DNA of 5,246 bases from Chloroflexota bacterium. GTDB lineage: Bacteria > Chloroflexota > Dehalococcoidia > Dehalococcoidales > UBA3254. Location: assembly GCA_017860765.1 (NCBI GenBank), contig JAGDMY010000123.1, forward strand, positions 1 through 5,246, given 5' to 3'. The notes beneath the pieces are model-generated. The model made no database searches, was not told the DNA's origin, and saw only the letters and a program-made list of their open reading frames with translations. Position numbers and translations under genes: made by a program. Shown in pieces: positions 1-4,948 of the stretch (positions are counted from its first letter, which is position 1; every line of letters begins with the position of its first letter).

Positions 1-1166
1 GGGGCCGCCCCGCCGGTGCCCCCCCAGAAATTCACTCCGGGCTTGCCGGGTCCCTGCATGGCCCCCAGAAGCACCATTAGCCTGGCCCATTCGGTGGCAT
101 AGGCTTCGCGGCAGGCGCCGGTGGCGCCGAAGATGCTGCCGACTGCCAGCATGGTCTTTTTGGAGGCCCATTCCCTGGCTAAAGCCGTGATGGTATGGGC
201 CGGGACGTCACAGATCGCGGCCGCCCACCGGGGGGTCTTGGGAGTCTTATCCTGGCCTTGGCCCAGGATATGCTGCTTCCACTCCTCAAAGCCGTAGGTG
301 CGGTTTTCCACGAACCATTTATCGTAGGTCCCTTCCTTTAACCAGACATAACCGATCGCTTCGGCCAGGGCGGCGTCCGTTCCGGGCCGCGGCGCGATCC
401 AGGTATCACCCAGGGTACTGGCGGTGCAGTTGCAATACGGATCAACGGTCACAAAGGGGATGCCCAGCTCTTTCATCCAGATCCGCCACATCAGATTTTC
501 CTGGCCGCTGTACATATAGGAGGTGCTGTTGGGGTCCACTGCCCAGAAGATCACCTGCTCGGTGTTTTTCAGGGCATCCTGCAGCAGCTCGGACTGCTCG
601 CAATGTCCCAGCCGCCACCAGTGTCCCCAGGTGTGGACGGCCCCCCACTGCCACCCTTCCCAGCTGTCCGGGTTATCAAACAAAGTGGTGTAGCCTAACA
701 AATTGAAAAAGCGGCCCAGGGGACCCAGCTTATAATGCAGAAAGCCCCAGTTATGGTGGGAGGAGGTCATGGCCGTAATGGCGGCGGGACCGTAGGTCTG
801 GCGAATCCGCTTCATTTCCGCGGAGACCAGGTCGAGGGCTTCCTCCCAGGAGATGCGGACATACTCATCTTTGCCCCGCAGTTCGGGGTGTCTCTCCCCT
901 TTAGGATCAAAATGCTTCCGCTTAAGCGGATATCTGGTGCGGTTCTCGGCATAAACCCTCGTTCGCTCAGGGACTTCGTAGGTTTGCAGGGTGGTCTTGC
1001 GGGGCGGGGTGAACCGCCGCCCGTGGGCCTGGATAACCCAGGAAGGCGCATCCGCCTTATCGTCAAATATAATAGGCCGCATGCGGACAATCTTGCCGTC
1101 TCTGACATATACTCTGACCGGTCCACCGACAGTACACTGTATAAAGACCTGCTCTTCGGATGCCAT
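1..1166 (-). CDS. Transhydroxylase-type molybdopterin catalytic subunit (alpha-2), C-terminus cut by window edge
   Basis: This is the N-terminal 388 residues of a bis-MGD molybdenum enzyme; family members are about 875 aa, so more than half lies beyond the left edge. The ATG at 1166 follows a strong ribosome site (AAAGGGGG, 6-nt gap). There is no Tat signal, and the N-terminus has only one Cys (C11), so it lacks the [4Fe-4S] motif of many relatives, as in Pelobacter transhydroxylase (TH, athL). Residues 75-130 hold the usual RYPLKRK and YVRISWEEALD blocks. The pocket reads SSHHNWG (H137/H138), Y145, then NPDSWEGW (D167, S168, W169). The spacing His-7-Tyr-21-Asp-Ser-Trp matches what I recall for TH His144, Tyr152, Asp174, Ser175 (Mo ligand) and Trp176. 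The stretch near residues 34-56 (FDDKADAPSW, FTPPRKT) also strongly recalls TH. It is therefore the better TH candidate of the two alpha chains. It lies 90 bp behind the beta gene, past a terminator hairpin. Whether its own beta gene follows is unknown. Confidence 0.93.
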   Translation of the reverse strand, partial: MASEEQVFIQCTVGGPVRVYVRDGKIVRMRPIIFDDKADAPSWVIQAHGRRFTPPRKTTLQTYEVPERTRVYAENRTRYPLKRKHFDPKGERHPELRGKDEYVRISWEEALDLVSAEMKRIRQTYGPAAITAMTSSHHNWGFLHYKLGPLGRFFNLLGYTTLFDNPDSWEGWQWGAVHTWGHWWRLGHCEQSELLQDALKNTEQVIFWAVDPNSTSYMYSGQENLMWRIWMKELGIPFVTVDPYCNCTASTLGDTWIAPRPGTDAALAEAIGYVWLKEGTYDKWFVENRTYGFEEWKQHILGQGQDKTPKTPRWAAAICDVPAHTITALAREWASKKTMLAVGSIFGATGACREAYATEWARLMVLLGAMQGPGKPGVNFWGGTGGAA

Positions 1167-1172
1167 CACATT

Positions 1173-1180
1173 CCCCCTTT
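1173..1180 (-). promoter_or_regulatory. Ribosome binding site of alpha-2
   Basis: On the minus strand AAAGGGGG precedes the ATG at 1166 with a 6-nt spacer. It fixes the start of alpha-2 and can pair with CCCUUU in the descending arm of the upstream terminator (minus strand 1205-1200), so its access could depend on which structure forms. Confidence 0.75.
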
Positions 1181-1194
1181 AGACTTTAAAGTCT
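1181..1194. repeat. 14-bp perfect palindrome next to the alpha-2 ribosome binding site
   Basis: AGACTTTAAAGTCT is perfectly self-complementary. It sits between the terminator hairpin and the AAAGGGGG ribosome site of alpha-2, directly abutting the latter. It could be an operator, or an RNA stem (AGACU-UUAA-AGUCU) that brings the ribosome site close to the CCCUUU of the terminator's 3' arm. Part of it recurs as AAAGTCT at 1228-1234. The role is inferred only. Confidence 0.45.
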
Positions 1195-1197
1195 TTA

Positions 1198-1225
1198 AAA
1201 AAGGGTGCTCTGGTGCACCCTTTTT
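1198..1225 (-). terminator. Intrinsic terminator or attenuator between beta and alpha-2
   Basis: A perfect 11-bp stem is visible: AAAAAGGGTGC at 1198-1208 and GCACCCTTTTT at 1215-1225, with a 6-nt loop. Read on the minus strand the hairpin runs into six U residues, starting about 31 nt after the beta stop codon, the usual geometry of a Rho-independent terminator. The flanking A and T runs make it nearly symmetrical, so it could also work on the plus strand. It lies inside the 90-bp gap before alpha-2, and I see no convincing promoter between it and alpha-2. Partial read-through is the simplest way for alpha-2 to be expressed from the same transcript. Confidence 0.8.
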
Positions 1226-1256
1226 AAAAAGTCTGCTTTCAATGTCTCATAAGGTT

Positions 1257-2075
1257 TCAAACCTGCTTGTATAGCGCCAGGTCGCCAATATTGATATCTT
1301 TTTCCGTGCTAATTCCATTGACTTCTCTGGTCAGGTAGCCGGCTTTCTCTATTGTCAACGAGAAGTTGCCGACCTTCAGACCTTCAAACCAGAAATCACC
1401 GAAATCATCCGTCTGGAGGCTGGAAATTTTCGCGCCCTTGTCCCCCTTCAGGGTAACCGTAGCCCCTTCCAGACACTCGTCCGCTTCAGAGTCATAAACA
1501 GCCCCGGCAATAAACCTCTTGGGGATGCCGATGTAGTAGACCCGGGGTCCGGCCTTGGCTTCCGGCTTCAGTATTTCGGCCTTAGCAATAATATCCTTGA
1601 AGTCTTCTTCTTCACCGAACTTTAAGGCTCCGGTGGGACAGGCATCCACACACCTGGGCTCCTTCCAGCCCTTATCCAGCAAATGAGCGCACCAGGTGCA
1701 CTTTTGCGCAATATTCAGGTCCCGGTTGAAATAGATTATGCCGTAGGGACAGGCGTCCAGACAGTTCCTCTGTCCGGCGCATTTGGTGGGGTCTATGATT
1801 ACCGCGCCGTCCGGTCTGCGATAGATGGCGTCAGATTTGCAGGCCGGAATGCAGGGAGCATCGGCGCAATGCTGACACATATAATGCATATACGCCATTT
1901 TTACTTTAGGCACCTGCCCTCTGACGATATCCTGGACCCTCATCCAGAACTGGCCGGTGTCCGGCTGGGGCTTGGCGATCGGTGTCCAGTCATTGCCCAC
2001 ATGCTCATCCTTGCAGGCAATCTGGCAGTTGTAGCAACCGTTGCACCTGGTAATGTCGATAATAAACGCTTTCAA
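1257..2075 (-). CDS. Transhydroxylase-type iron-sulfur beta subunit with C-terminal transthyretin-like domain
   Basis: This 272-aa electron-transfer subunit should partner the alpha chain encoded just upstream. It resembles the small subunit of pyrogallol:phloroglucinol transhydroxylase (bthL, about 274 aa). Residues 1-150 are a DmsB/NrfC-like polyferredoxin. Group I is C11, C14, C17, C21; group II is C67, C70, C75, C79; group III is C99, C105, C109 with Q102 where the second Cys is expected; group IV is C126, C129, C142, C146. Residues about 187-270 form a carboxypeptidase-regulatory or Cna-B-like beta-sandwich (TDDFGDFWFEGL, then G-x-F-x-L-x-I-x3-GY), characteristic of TH beta. No signal peptide or membrane segment is seen, so it is cytoplasmic. 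The start is TTG at 2075, chosen because MKAFIIDITRC matches the family N-terminus. AGAGGTG and AAGGA upstream lie inside the end of alpha-1, and the TTG overlaps the alpha-1 TGA as TTGA, implying coupled translation and 1:1 stoichiometry. A terminator hairpin begins about 31 nt after the stop. Confidence 0.95.
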   Translation of the reverse strand: MKAFIIDITRCNGCYNCQIACKDEHVGNDWTPIAKPQPDTGQFWMRVQDIVRGQVPKVKMAYMHYMCQHCADAPCIPACKSDAIYRRPDGAVIIDPTKCAGQRNCLDACPYGIIYFNRDLNIAQKCTWCAHLLDKGWKEPRCVDACPTGALKFGEEEDFKDIIAKAEILKPEAKAGPRVYYIGIPKRFIAGAVYDSEADECLEGATVTLKGDKGAKISSLQTDDFGDFWFEGLKVGNFSLTIEKAGYLTREVNGISTEKDINIGDLALYKQV

Positions 2076-4714
2076 CTTTCCTTTTCACCTCTATATAATA
2101 TTCTCTCGAAGGTCTGCCCGGAGGCAGCATCGTAAGGCCGGCTGAAGACTTCGGGATATTTCCGCCGCAGTTCTTCGATGTCGGTCCTCTCCGCCTGCAC
2201 CAGAAAACCGCTGGTAACCATGCCCGCGCAATTCTTGGAGGTGGTATGGCGCGGACAGATGGTATTAATGGCACCGCCCCGATCGAATTCCCCCGGCACA
2301 ATGGGATCGTAGCGGGACCCGTGGTCGATATAAACACATCCCGGCATGATGCGCTCGGTGACATAGGCACCTGCCAGCACGCGCCCCCTCTCGTTAAATA
2401 GCGCGACGATATCTCCGTCCCGGATATCCCGCCTGGCGGCATCGGAGGGGTGGATCCAGACCGGTTCGTAGAGATAACCGTCCGGCCCTTTGACCTTGCC
2501 GGTGACTATCTCGTGGAACCAGTCGACGTCATCCATCTGGGCATGGACCCTCCACCTCGGATGGTTGGAGATGACCAGCAGGGGATAATCCCTGACCCTT
2601 TCGCTGGAAATCCTTTCATCATGGAAATCGCTCTTTTCCACCCAGTGGGGCACTGGCGGCCTCTCAATATCATCCGGGAAGTTTTTAGCCAGCCGCTCGG
2701 AATAAAACTCCAGCTTGCCGCTGGGAGTGGACATGGGATATTTCTCCGGGTCTTTGTAGAACTCGATCATGCCGGCGGGGATTTTCTCCCAATCCGGGTC
2801 GGTAGGCACCACGCAGTATTTCTTCTCCTGAATCTGCTCCCAGGTGCAAATGCCCGCCTTCTCCATCCCCGAGCCGTCGAAACCGGTCTTAATCCATTGC
2901 TGGAGGGTCTTGCCTTCGGAATATTTTTCATAGAGGCCCATTCTCTTGGCAATTTCACCCACGATTTCCCAATCCGTCTTGGACTCTCCCCGGGGTTCAA
3001 TCGCCTTCTCTTCCAGGTAGACACAGTTGTATTGTACCGGCCAATGGTCAGCCCCGATATCTTCTTCCTCATACTTGGTATTGACGGGAAGGATAATGTC
3101 GGCAAACAGGCAGTCGTTTTCCAGCCAGGGATGCTGGATTAAGATAAATTCAATCTTCTCCATTTGCATTGTACGATGGAAGAAGTTGGCATCATTCCAG
3201 CAGGTGCTGAAACAGGGGGTATCCGACCAGAGCATATGAATTTCCTGTTTGCCCGGCAGAGGGTAAACATAATGCTTGAACTGGTCCTCGACCACTTCCA
3301 TCTGATCGGAGCTGCCGTAGATATCATATTTGCCGGTCGCAATCACATCGTGCAAAATGGTCTTGGGAATCATTGACTCCTGCTTCCACATGAAGGGGAT
3401 GTAGCCCCTGTAGGCGGCGCCGACCATCGGGCGAATCTTGGAGGTCGGCGTGAGCATTCCCACCACCCCAGGCTTGCCCGATCTCATCCTGTTGTAGCTT
3501 CCCAGCATGGTACCTTCCACGAAGGTAAGCTGGTTGACACCCGGCTTGCCCACCCCCTGCATGCCCAGCAGGCAGACCTCCATCCGGGCCGGCTCGGAGG
3601 AATAGGGGCCGCGGATGTAGGGACCGCCATAGCCGTGGGCGACGGTGGTGCGTTTTTTGGCCCACACCCTGGCCAGGGCCTTGATGGTCCGGGAAGGGAC
3701 GCCGCACTTCTCGGCTGCCCATTTAGGGGTCTTGGGGACGCCGTCCTCCTTGCCCAGAACGTAGTCAGAAAACTTATCGAAGCCGACGACATGGGTCTTC
3801 ACATATTCTTTATCATAGGTCCCGTTGACGATCCACTGGTAGGCGATGGCCAGCTGCATAGCCACATCGGTATTGGGAAGGATGGGTATCCATTTGTCCG
3901 CATGAATAGCAGCGGCATAGTTCAGATCGGGGCTGATATAGACCTGCTTGATGCCCAGCTCGGTATACCAGTAGCTCATCAGGCTGGGCAAATGTCCTCC
4001 CCCAAAGCCCCAGGGAGTGGTCTCCTGGTCGCAGCCCTGGCAGATCAGCATCTCGGTGTTTTTGGCGACATCATTATAGAGGTTGGAGGAATATTCCATG
4101 TTCAGGCCCACCGGCTCGCAGCCCCAGACATGTTTGGCCCCCCAGTACCAGCCTTCCCAGCTATCCGGGTTGCGGATCTGCTGGGTGTAGCCGCCGAGCA
4201 GCCTCATGAGATAGATGGCACAGCCATGGGCCGCGTTGACCGCTTTGCCTTCTCCATGGCCCTCGGCCTGGAGGCAGATGCCCTCCGGACCGTACTTTTT
4301 TTGGACCCTCTTGATTTCGCTGACGATGATATCCAGGGCCTCATCCCAGGAAATTCTCACATACTTGCTTTTGCCGCGGTTCCGGGTATTTCTGTTGCCA
4401 TTGGGGTCCCAATCCACCCTCTTCAAGGGATACATAATCCGGTTGGGAGAATAGATCCTCTTCTTGTAAGCCGTGCCATGAGGAGGCAAAGGAGACTTGA
4501 GGGGCGGCACAAAAGTCTGGCCGCGGGCCTCCAGCTTCCAGGGGTTGAATTCCTCCGGTTTATATCTCCAATCGTAATGCAGAGGGCGAATGCGGACTAT
4601 CTTGTTATCCTTGACATCCACGCAGGCTACGTTGGAATTGTCACCAAATGAGCTAAAACAGGTACCCTTGATTACCGTTTTTTCTTCTGATTGCGGCCTA
4701 TTTTCTGGCTTCAT
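2072..4714 (-). CDS. Transhydroxylase-family molybdopterin oxidoreductase, catalytic subunit (alpha-1)
   Basis: This complete 880-aa protein is a DMSO-reductase-superfamily catalytic subunit, close in length to Pelobacter TH alpha (about 875 aa). The start is ATG at 4714 with AGGGAG at 4725-4720. The N-terminus has no Tat signal, and C19 and C31 do not form a [4Fe-4S] motif. In order: an N-terminal domain with MYPLKRVDWDPNG and YVRISWDEALD (about 94-127); the Mo-ligand motif NPDSWEGW with D184, S185, W186; a central cofactor-binding region (about 220-400, including GMQGVGKPGVN); a middle domain with FADIILPVNTKYEEED (537-552); and a C-terminal MGD-binding domain (about 705-840), including HPSDAARRDIRDGDIV and a Gly/Arg-rich turn. 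It is a diverged paralogue of alpha-2. Upstream of D-S-W it has EGHGEGKAVNAAHGC (H153, H163) instead of the SSHHNWG-x-LHY of alpha-2, with a net one-residue indel, so the substrate probably differs. It is the first gene of the operon and overlaps beta by four bases. The family is secure; the reaction (hydroxyl transfer, hydroxylation or dehydroxylation of an aromatic) is not. Confidence 0.95.
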   Translation of the reverse strand: MKPENRPQSEEKTVIKGTCFSSFGDNSNVACVDVKDNKIVRIRPLHYDWRYKPEEFNPWKLEARGQTFVPPLKSPLPPHGTAYKKRIYSPNRIMYPLKRVDWDPNGNRNTRNRGKSKYVRISWDEALDIIVSEIKRVQKKYGPEGICLQAEGHGEGKAVNAAHGCAIYLMRLLGGYTQQIRNPDSWEGWYWGAKHVWGCEPVGLNMEYSSNLYNDVAKNTEMLICQGCDQETTPWGFGGGHLPSLMSYWYTELGIKQVYISPDLNYAAAIHADKWIPILPNTDVAMQLAIAYQWIVNGTYDKEYVKTHVVGFDKFSDYVLGKEDGVPKTPKWAAEKCGVPSRTIKALARVWAKKRTTVAHGYGGPYIRGPYSSEPARMEVCLLGMQGVGKPGVNQLTFVEGTMLGSYNRMRSGKPGVVGMLTPTSKIRPMVGAAYRGYIPFMWKQESMIPKTILHDVIATGKYDIYGSSDQMEVVEDQFKHYVYPLPGKQEIHMLWSDTPCFSTCWNDANFFHRTMQMEKIEFILIQHPWLENDCLFADIILPVNTKYEEEDIGADHWPVQYNCVYLEEKAIEPRGESKTDWEIVGEIAKRMGLYEKYSEGKTLQQWIKTGFDGSGMEKAGICTWEQIQEKKYCVVPTDPDWEKIPAGMIEFYKDPEKYPMSTPSGKLEFYSERLAKNFPDDIERPPVPHWVEKSDFHDERISSERVRDYPLLVISNHPRWRVHAQMDDVDWFHEIVTGKVKGPDGYLYEPVWIHPSDAARRDIRDGDIVALFNERGRVLAGAYVTERIMPGCVYIDHGSRYDPIVPGEFDRGGAINTICPRHTTSKNCAGMVTSGFLVQAERTDIEELRRKYPEVFSRPYDAASGQTFERILYRGEKES

Positions 4715-4903: not shown

Positions 4904-4948
4904 GCTATCAGAAAAGGGATTATTTCGCTATCAGAAAAGGGATTATTT
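4904..4948. repeat. Two perfect 22-bp direct repeats, 23-bp period
   Basis: Two identical 22-base copies lie at 4904-4925 and 4927-4948. Each begins GCTATCAGAAAAGGG and ends in ATTATTT, and one base separates them. The period is about two helical turns, so bound proteins would lie on nearly the same face of the DNA. They are in the intergenic region upstream of alpha-1 and outside any credible gene. They look like a tandem binding site for a regulator, though a simple local duplication is possible. Confidence 0.85.

Follow-up and report, generated by a model that had tools for sequence, protein, structure and literature searches.

The nearest relative of known structure for the genes examined here is the pyrogallol-phloroglucinol transhydroxylase (TH) of Pelobacter acidigallici (PgtL/AthL; PDB 4v4c). 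In this class of enzymes, the beta subunit normally has four iron–sulfur (Fe-S) clusters, the fourth of which is the electron exit to an outside partner. Several copies of the transhydroxylase genes (AthLS) have already been published for Chloroflexi (PMC3971608, PMC4959651), and the claim that these bacteria ferment pyrogallol is based on their transhydroxylase-like genes (PMC3971608). Here, we describe a stretch of 5,246 nucleotides from a Chloroflexota bacterium (contig JAGDMY010000123.1; hereafter, the window), which has three open reading frames on the minus strand: a catalytic subunit (alpha1), an Fe-S subunit (beta), and another catalytic subunit (alpha2). Our best explanation, in which as a whole we place somewhat better than even confidence, is that two alpha/beta molybdoenzymes of the TH (PF21423) family lie in tandem in the window, one of them complete and the other truncated, and that the complete one is an enzyme different from TH.

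Alpha1 (2072..4714, minus strand) is a complete catalytic subunit of 880 amino acids with the domains PF21423, PF00384, and PF01568; beta (1257..2075, minus strand) is a TH-type Fe-S subunit of 272 amino acids; and alpha2 (3..1169, minus strand) runs for 389 amino acids without a stop codon, its 3' end being cut by the window edge. In Pfam, both alphas match PF21423 (“Pyrogallol hydroxytransferase large subunit-like, domain 1”) and PF00384, and PF04879 (the Fe4S4 domain) is listed for neither of them at E up to 0.001, in agreement with an initial annotation of this DNA, in which the N-terminal Fe-S motif was described as missing. Beta matches Fer4_11 and, in its C-terminal part (residues 189–258), CarboxypepD_reg (PF13620), and it aligns with the beta subunit of TH over the whole length including the C-terminal domain. 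Neither alpha reaches a cut-off in NCBIfam. The best PDB sequence match of all three chains is TH, with an E-value of 1.6e-133 and 450 bits for alpha1 (next PDB sequence, 268.7 bits), 9.1e-130 and 436.2 bits for alpha2 (next, 141.8), and 2.7e-52 and 181.4 bits for beta (next, 113.4); a chance likeness to TH is excluded by these E-values. Also, the AlphaFold model of alpha1 (pLDDT 93.3, from an alignment of 115 rows) finds TH as its best match in Foldseek (TM 0.83/0.84) and superposes on 4v4c_A with a root-mean-square deviation of 2.0 Å over 799 residues (VIA-align Z 40.5). Both alphas resemble TH in having the NPDSWEGW block with a Ser ligand, the equivalents of His144, Asp174, and Trp176, and no listed Fe4S4 domain. 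This block, already pointed out in the initial annotation, is located at 4148..4171 in alpha1 (minus strand; residues 182–189, with Ser185, equivalent to TH Ser175, as the putative Mo ligand) and at 651..674 in alpha2 (minus strand; residues 166–173 counted from GTG, with Ser169 as the putative ligand).

In the phylogenetic trees of the alpha subunits, both of which were rooted on dimethyl sulfoxide (DMSO)/trimethylamine N-oxide (TMAO) reductases, alpha1 and alpha2 are nonetheless separated. Clade A, composed of TH, two proteobacterial plasmid homologues (L109 and L110), and alpha2, and clade B, to which alpha1 belongs, each have a support of 100/100 in a careful tree of 29 rows and of 100 by the Shimodaira–Hasegawa-like approximate likelihood ratio test (SH-aLRT) in a quick tree of 57 rows. 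Within clade A, alpha2 stands outside the sub-branch containing TH. Two chains of Raoultibacter timonensis (L116 and L117) form a small clade C at full support, and the branching order among the three clades is left unsettled by both trees. In the alphas of clade C, Asn replaces Asp174 and His144 is followed by Pro-Glu-Trp; the genome of R. timonensis has 13 PF21423 matches, with the counts in 10 genomes ranging from 1 to 13. One tight clade with identical pockets, the outcome that would have spoken against a distinct branch, was thus not seen in the trees with TH and DMSO/TMAO reductases, and the suggestion in the initial annotation that alpha1 represents an uncharacterised branch of the TH family is borne out by the separate clade and its different pocket; clade B has no characterised member in the set assembled.

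Clade B is a cross-phylum clade, not a lone oddity. A protein search with alpha1 scored 7,996 candidates, 5,182 of which had E up to 0.001 (the best 120 being listed), and the related loci were the best 80 of 418 confirmed encoding stretches from a genome scan, kept as 78 loci. These are labelled as Chloroflexota, Actinomycetota, Bacillota, Desulfobacterota-type, and others, including one anaerobic methanotroph (ANME-2) bin, where labels of metagenome-assembled genomes may be wrong. By tree or BLAST score, clade B includes proteins of Sporomusa acidovorans, Sporomusa silvacetica, Candidatus Formimonas warabiya, Gordonibacter sp. 28C, R. timonensis, Desulfamplus magnetovallimortis, and Geomobilimonas luticola, all of them cultured or culturable organisms; the clade ranges from Chloroflexota in sediments to Coriobacteriia in the gut and sulfate reducers. 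The closest of the 78 loci (L001) is from a member of Dehalococcoidia in a fen. A census of 119 genomes from its class, with at most seven candidates scored in each, yielded 28 with a match at E up to 1e-30; matches at the level of clade B (54–82%), however, were found only in the genome of L001 itself, and clade B is therefore patchy in that class.

The two clades are distinguished by the residues of the substrate pocket. These were counted, by alignment rather than by structural overlay, in 115 aligned chains (81 of clade B and 34 of clade A) with the columns tied to the numbering of TH, which was verified on 4v4c_A; two further alignments agree with the differences between the clades. While His144, Asp174, Ser175, and Trp176 (TH numbers) are kept in 81/81 chains of clade B and 34/34 of clade A, Tyr at the TH positions 152, 226, 404, and 560 is found in 34/34 chains of clade A and in 0/81 of clade B, alpha1 included. 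Tyr152, Tyr404, and Tyr560 presumably line the pocket of TH, and the position of Tyr560 is a gap in all 81 rows of clade B. Where clade A has Ser, mostly Asn, and Gly, clade B has Asp/Glu151, Glu155, and Lys157 (alpha1 numbers), with Glu155 in 81/81 and Lys157 in 77/81 of its chains and neither of them in any of the 34 chains of clade A. In alpha1, these residues belong to the segment EGHGEGKAVNAAHG (4223..4264, minus strand; residues 151–164), in which Glu151, Glu155, Lys157, and Ala161 occupy the positions of TH Ser142, Met146, Gly148, and Tyr152, His153 corresponds to TH His144, and His163 corresponds to TH His154, the last being invariant in clade B and replaced with Met or Leu in most other rows of clade A. 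The initial annotation was right about the divergent residues of this segment but not about its indels, since EGHGEGKAVNAAHG aligns without gaps with SSHHMWGNVGYRHS of TH and the nearest indel is one extra Gly further along (LLGGYT). In alpha2, on the other hand, H137, Y145, D167, S168, and W169 (counted from ATG at 1166–1164) align with TH H144, Y152, D174, S175, and W176, the spacing ascribed there to genuine TH. Overall, alpha2 shares with TH the clade, Tyr152, and 51% identity over 383 residues, whereas alpha1, with 34% identity, has neither the four tyrosines nor the loop of Tyr560 but its own Glu155 and Lys157. For Tyr404 and Tyr560, which would lie beyond residue 389 where alpha2 ends, only its relative in L001 (88% identity) can be consulted, and that relative has both tyrosines. 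With the tyrosines in 34/34 chains of clade A and 0/81 of clade B, and with Glu155 and Lys157 peculiar to the latter, the pocket of clade B would reflect replacement under constraint rather than drift.

The beta subunits differ as well. Residues 79–109 of the window beta (1749..1841, minus strand), with Cys79, Cys99, Cys105, and Gln102, include most ligands of the fourth Fe-S cluster site, which is missing from TH-type betas; the TH beta has Gly, Ala, and Leu at positions 79, 99, and 105. Cys79, Cys99, and Cys105 occur together in 41/60 betas of alpha1-type (40/59 without L117 of clade C) and 0/13 of alpha2-type, and 31 of those 41 also have Cys102. With the fourth cluster as the electron exit, its loss fits a redox-neutral transhydroxylase and its retention fits a net redox enzyme, which suggests that alpha1–beta may exchange electrons with a partner.

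As to which beta pairs with which alpha, 60 betas of alpha1-type (one of them, L117, from clade C) and 13 of alpha2-type are separated by a single branch of the beta tree, and mapping the alpha types onto this tree requires one change (0/500 shuffles as low). All the 13 alpha2-type betas are in a 15-row set with the TH beta (support 97), whose sole other row is L117, and the window beta is within a set of nine alpha1-type betas (support 98). The 78 loci contain 93 alpha1-type and 10 alpha2-type genes (103 alphas in total), for each of which the genes within 300 nucleotides downstream were recorded: a beta directly follows 9/10 alpha2-type genes, the tenth running into a contig end, and 60/93 alpha1-type genes, another 9/93 of which run into a contig end. 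L001 has the order of alpha1-like (57% identity), alpha2 (88%), beta (47%), alpha1 (82%), and beta (72%), followed by a crotonase-type gene, alpha2-like (70%), and beta (47%); the two cassettes stand in swapped order relative to the window, and the alpha2 with 88% identity is followed after 10 nucleotides by its own beta. In the window, furthermore, the TTG start of beta sits inside the stop codon of alpha1 (TTGA), so alpha1 and beta are probably translated together, and a terminator-like hairpin (1198..1225) lies between beta and alpha2. It is thus very probable that alpha1 is the partner of the window beta and that alpha2 pairs with a beta of its own. Since the beta type follows the alpha type, alpha2-type genes have their own beta in 9/10 cases, and the hairpin separates beta from alpha2, the window most likely represents two alpha/beta pairs instead of two alphas on one beta; between the two possibilities raised in the initial annotation, it is the one with a second beta beyond the edge that is supported, and the shared electron-transfer subunit is not favored by the beta tree, the alpha2-type loci, or L001.

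In terms of function, alpha2 together with its own beta beyond the edge would be an enzyme of the TH clade, Ser-ligated and, in the readable part, with the pocket of TH; it is likely a TH-type enzyme and would most likely transhydroxylate or hydroxylate a polyphenol such as trihydroxybenzene. Alpha1 with the window beta would be a different enzyme, in which the Mo-side set of His153, Asp184, the ligand Ser185, and Trp186 is retained, the four tyrosines of the TH clade are missing with Asp/Glu151, Glu155, and Lys157 instead, and beta retains most of the fourth-cluster ligands lost in TH-type betas. From the missing pocket tyrosines and the retained cluster ligands, we infer that alpha1–beta would catalyze a net redox reaction of a substrate that is phenolic or otherwise hydroxylated, with electrons passing between Mo and an outside partner, and redox-neutral transhydroxylation with a bound co-substrate would be disfavored. 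Reductive dehydroxylation is our first guess for the reaction and anaerobic hydroxylation the second, so that a phenol (de)hydroxylase would be the best guess for alpha1–beta; we give an about even chance to an aromatic substrate and a redox reaction, and less to either direction of the reaction. Both enzymes probably serve for oxygen-free turnover of phenol-like compounds. The split into clades, the pairing of alphas with betas, the differing residues, and the ligands of the cluster are computed results, and the operon boundary, net redox, the type of reaction, and an aromatic substrate are inferences. More tentatively, and with the balance of our judgment leaning against it, clade B might be an unrecognised family of net-redox Mo phenol dehydroxylases/hydroxylases that arose inside the TH lineage independently of the acetylene-hydratase-related catechol dehydroxylases and exchanged the co-substrate pocket lined with tyrosines for one with acidic residues plus a lysine.

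Several points weigh against this explanation. We know of no activity for any member of clade B, and no neighbor gene names a substrate. In the beta tree, the two groups are separated with a support of only 78. An adjacent beta is not universal for alpha1-type genes, because 15/93 have neither an alpha nor a beta within the 300 nucleotides downstream and 9/93 run directly into another alpha (five alpha1 and four alpha2). The hairpin at 1198–1225 is not listed in a pattern scan for terminators, perhaps since its T run pairs in the stem. Also, the fourth-cluster Cys residues are lacking in 19/60 alpha1-type betas (13 from Coriobacteriia, five from Bacillota, and one from an Actinobacteria bin); clade-wide net redox therefore cannot rest on the fourth cluster, and these 19 betas stand as an exception to this reading. 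Even in the window beta, where Gln replaces one of the four Cys residues, a [3Fe-4S] cluster might be bound at this site, or no cluster at all. Finally, TorA (9h4t) gives a slightly higher VIA-align Z (42.0) than TH does (40.5), although its superposition covers fewer residues at a larger deviation (755 at 2.5 Å, compared with 799 at 2.0 Å for TH), so that a non-aromatic oxo-transfer role is still compatible with the fold.

Among the other explanations to be considered, the two alphas might be alternative catalytic subunits with different substrates that dock on one shared beta; the window indeed shows the order of alpha–beta–alpha with no second beta in view, and the nine alpha1-type genes leading directly into another alpha would be consistent with such sharing. 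Nonetheless, nine of the ten alpha2-type genes adjoin a beta with the tenth cut by a contig end, the beta types track the alpha types in the tree, the alpha2 relative in L001 is provided with a beta of its own, and the hairpin stands between beta and alpha2; a shared beta, which we consider highly improbable here, would thus be disfavored for the window, albeit not for the family. As assumed in the published annotations of Chloroflexi, both enzymes might instead be ordinary pyrogallol-phloroglucinol transhydroxylases with the residue differences being drift, since RBG-2 is described with two of these complexes, RBG-1351 with two operons (PMC3971608), and DEH-C11 with three gene copies (PMC4959651), the fold is the same, and the clade B-invariant His163 is also His in Pelobacter TH. 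This is quite unlikely in view of the pocket tyrosines, which are in every chain of clade A and none of clade B, and of the Glu155 and Lys157 that clade B has as its own.

Alpha1–beta might also belong to the resorcinol hydroxylase (RhL/RhS) family, an anaerobic hydroxylase releasing electrons through beta. RhL is classed as a Ser-ligated and cytoplasmic enzyme and grouped with PgtL (PMC10100899), and a beta with the fourth cluster would suit net oxidation. The proteobacterial plasmid homologues L109 and L110 group, however, with TH in clade A, and no RhL to be placed on the tree was found by name among the 120 matches listed; we regard this assignment as unlikely. The TorA match at the top of the VIA-align ranking would rather favor an S- or N-oxide reductase of the DMSO/TMAO reductase type, as would a match of alpha1 to TIGR00509 (S/N-oxide reductase) with 367.7 bits and the name of trimethylamine-N-oxide reductase given to some relatives by JGI. 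That score is, nonetheless, far under the curated cut-off of 1017.55 and does not make alpha1 a member; TH ranks first by both sequence and Foldseek, and in the 57-row tree alpha1 is apart from the three outgroup reductases, which have no His at the position of His153 and no Asp at that of Asp184. Such a reductase is, in our opinion, very unlikely. Our preferred reading remains that of two alpha/beta pairs, one TH-type and the other with a different pocket.

Between beta and alpha2 is a gap of 87 bases, which contains the hairpin and a palindrome (no strand assigned to either). The hairpin has a GGGTGC/GCACCC stem with A and T runs at its flanks, and the 111-nucleotide stretch including it has a folding energy of –31.3 kcal/mol (z –3.03; 1/200 shuffles as stable); Rfam gives no match at gathering thresholds. 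This hairpin is likely the end of the alpha1–beta transcription unit, and the two alpha/beta units are probably transcribed separately. The 14-nucleotide palindrome AGACTTTAAAGTCT (1181..1194), directly upstream of alpha2, is a possible operator, and among all the related loci searched only the window has it. The start of alpha2 is likely the ATG at 1166–1164 behind GGGGG. Upstream of alpha1 (4904–4948) are two identical 22-nucleotide direct repeats, GCTATCAGAAAAGGGATTATTT, 23 nucleotides start to start. A pseudogene reading was also considered and rejected; alpha1 and beta are intact frames with relatives at 82–83% and 72% identity, respectively. A protein sharing 879 of the 880 residues of alpha1 is also on record, from a contig of 7,951 bases.

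Variations in the gene arrangement were noticed in the related loci. An alpha1-type gene leads straight into an alpha2 gene in L001, L006, L007, and L008, and L018:3514-7083 is a single open frame of 1,190 amino acids, in which beta (4–276) is fused to alpha1 (324–1190); this natural fusion, which has an unfused alpha1 and an unfused beta at its flanks, is in line with the pairing of alpha1 and beta. L009 and L016 have alpha1-type genes without an adjoining beta, and in Sporomusa acidovorans (L120:2929-5626), a TH-like gene is split over two overlapping frames (446 + 481 amino acids). As for the neighbors, L001 has genes for CoA-transferase and crotonase, and in L009 alpha1 is directly followed by a gene for a UbiX-like flavoprotein, with a UbiD gene 8 kb further; TRAP, DASS, and MFS transporter, FAH, BKACE, GntR, and OYE-type genes are near alpha1-type genes in other loci. 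The neighbors of alpha1-type genes suggest that organic acids or aromatics are catabolized anaerobically. Other molybdoenzymes, forming one cluster by single linkage, were found in 15 loci, and the scanned members of this cluster (L022, L039, L057, and L059) have the Fe4S4 domain; an NrfD-type gene accompanies an extra molybdoenzyme in six loci (one scanned). Upstream of alpha1 in L036, L050, L051, L057, L059, and L060 are a recurring Fe-S protein, an NrfD-type membrane protein, and a further molybdoenzyme. In Coriobacteriia, relatives of a LuxR (GerE) protein (L058:7672-9099) are within 3.1 kb in 8/14 clade B loci, and MalT-type LuxR matches are up to 7.5 kb away in four other clade B loci, with GerE confirmed by Pfam in five proteins from four loci. 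Proximity of LuxR is weak evidence, nonetheless, because GerE domains are common in those genomes (63 matches in Gordonibacter sp. 28C and at least 150 in R. timonensis, 3.9 Mb each).

Among the known systems, catechol dehydroxylases have an N-terminal Fe4S4 domain. Those of gut Eggerthella and Gordonibacter (PMC7028382, PMC12771579) are described as being likewise Mo enzymes on phenols in anaerobes and as being encoded near LuxR-type regulators, as are some clade B proteins of Coriobacteriia, but also as being closest to acetylene hydratase. Alpha1 instead belongs to PF21423 and has 65.4 bits against acetylene hydratase (2e7z) in the PDB sequence search, compared with 450 for TH; from this weak likeness and the lack of a PF04879 match, judged without catechol dehydroxylases on the tree, alpha1 does not qualify as one of them. 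The “pyrogallol hydroxytransferases” of RBG-2, RBG-1351, and DEH-C11 come from the phylum of L001 with several AthLS copies per genome, and are likened to the window by their descriptions, not sequences; the portions of PMC3971608 and PMC4959651 considered here set no clade with a different pocket apart, and no description of a clade with this pocket was seen in the open-access literature searched, most subscription papers being outside its scope. Relative to the known multiple copies of AthLS, what appears new is a separate clade with a remodelled pocket. If clade B is indeed a family of its own, its members might easily be misannotated as pyrogallol hydroxytransferase or TMAO reductase. The reaction is directly testable in the cultivable organisms named above. 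If one branch is a different enzyme, furthermore, the number of AthLS copies is no evidence for pyrogallol fermentation in Chloroflexi.

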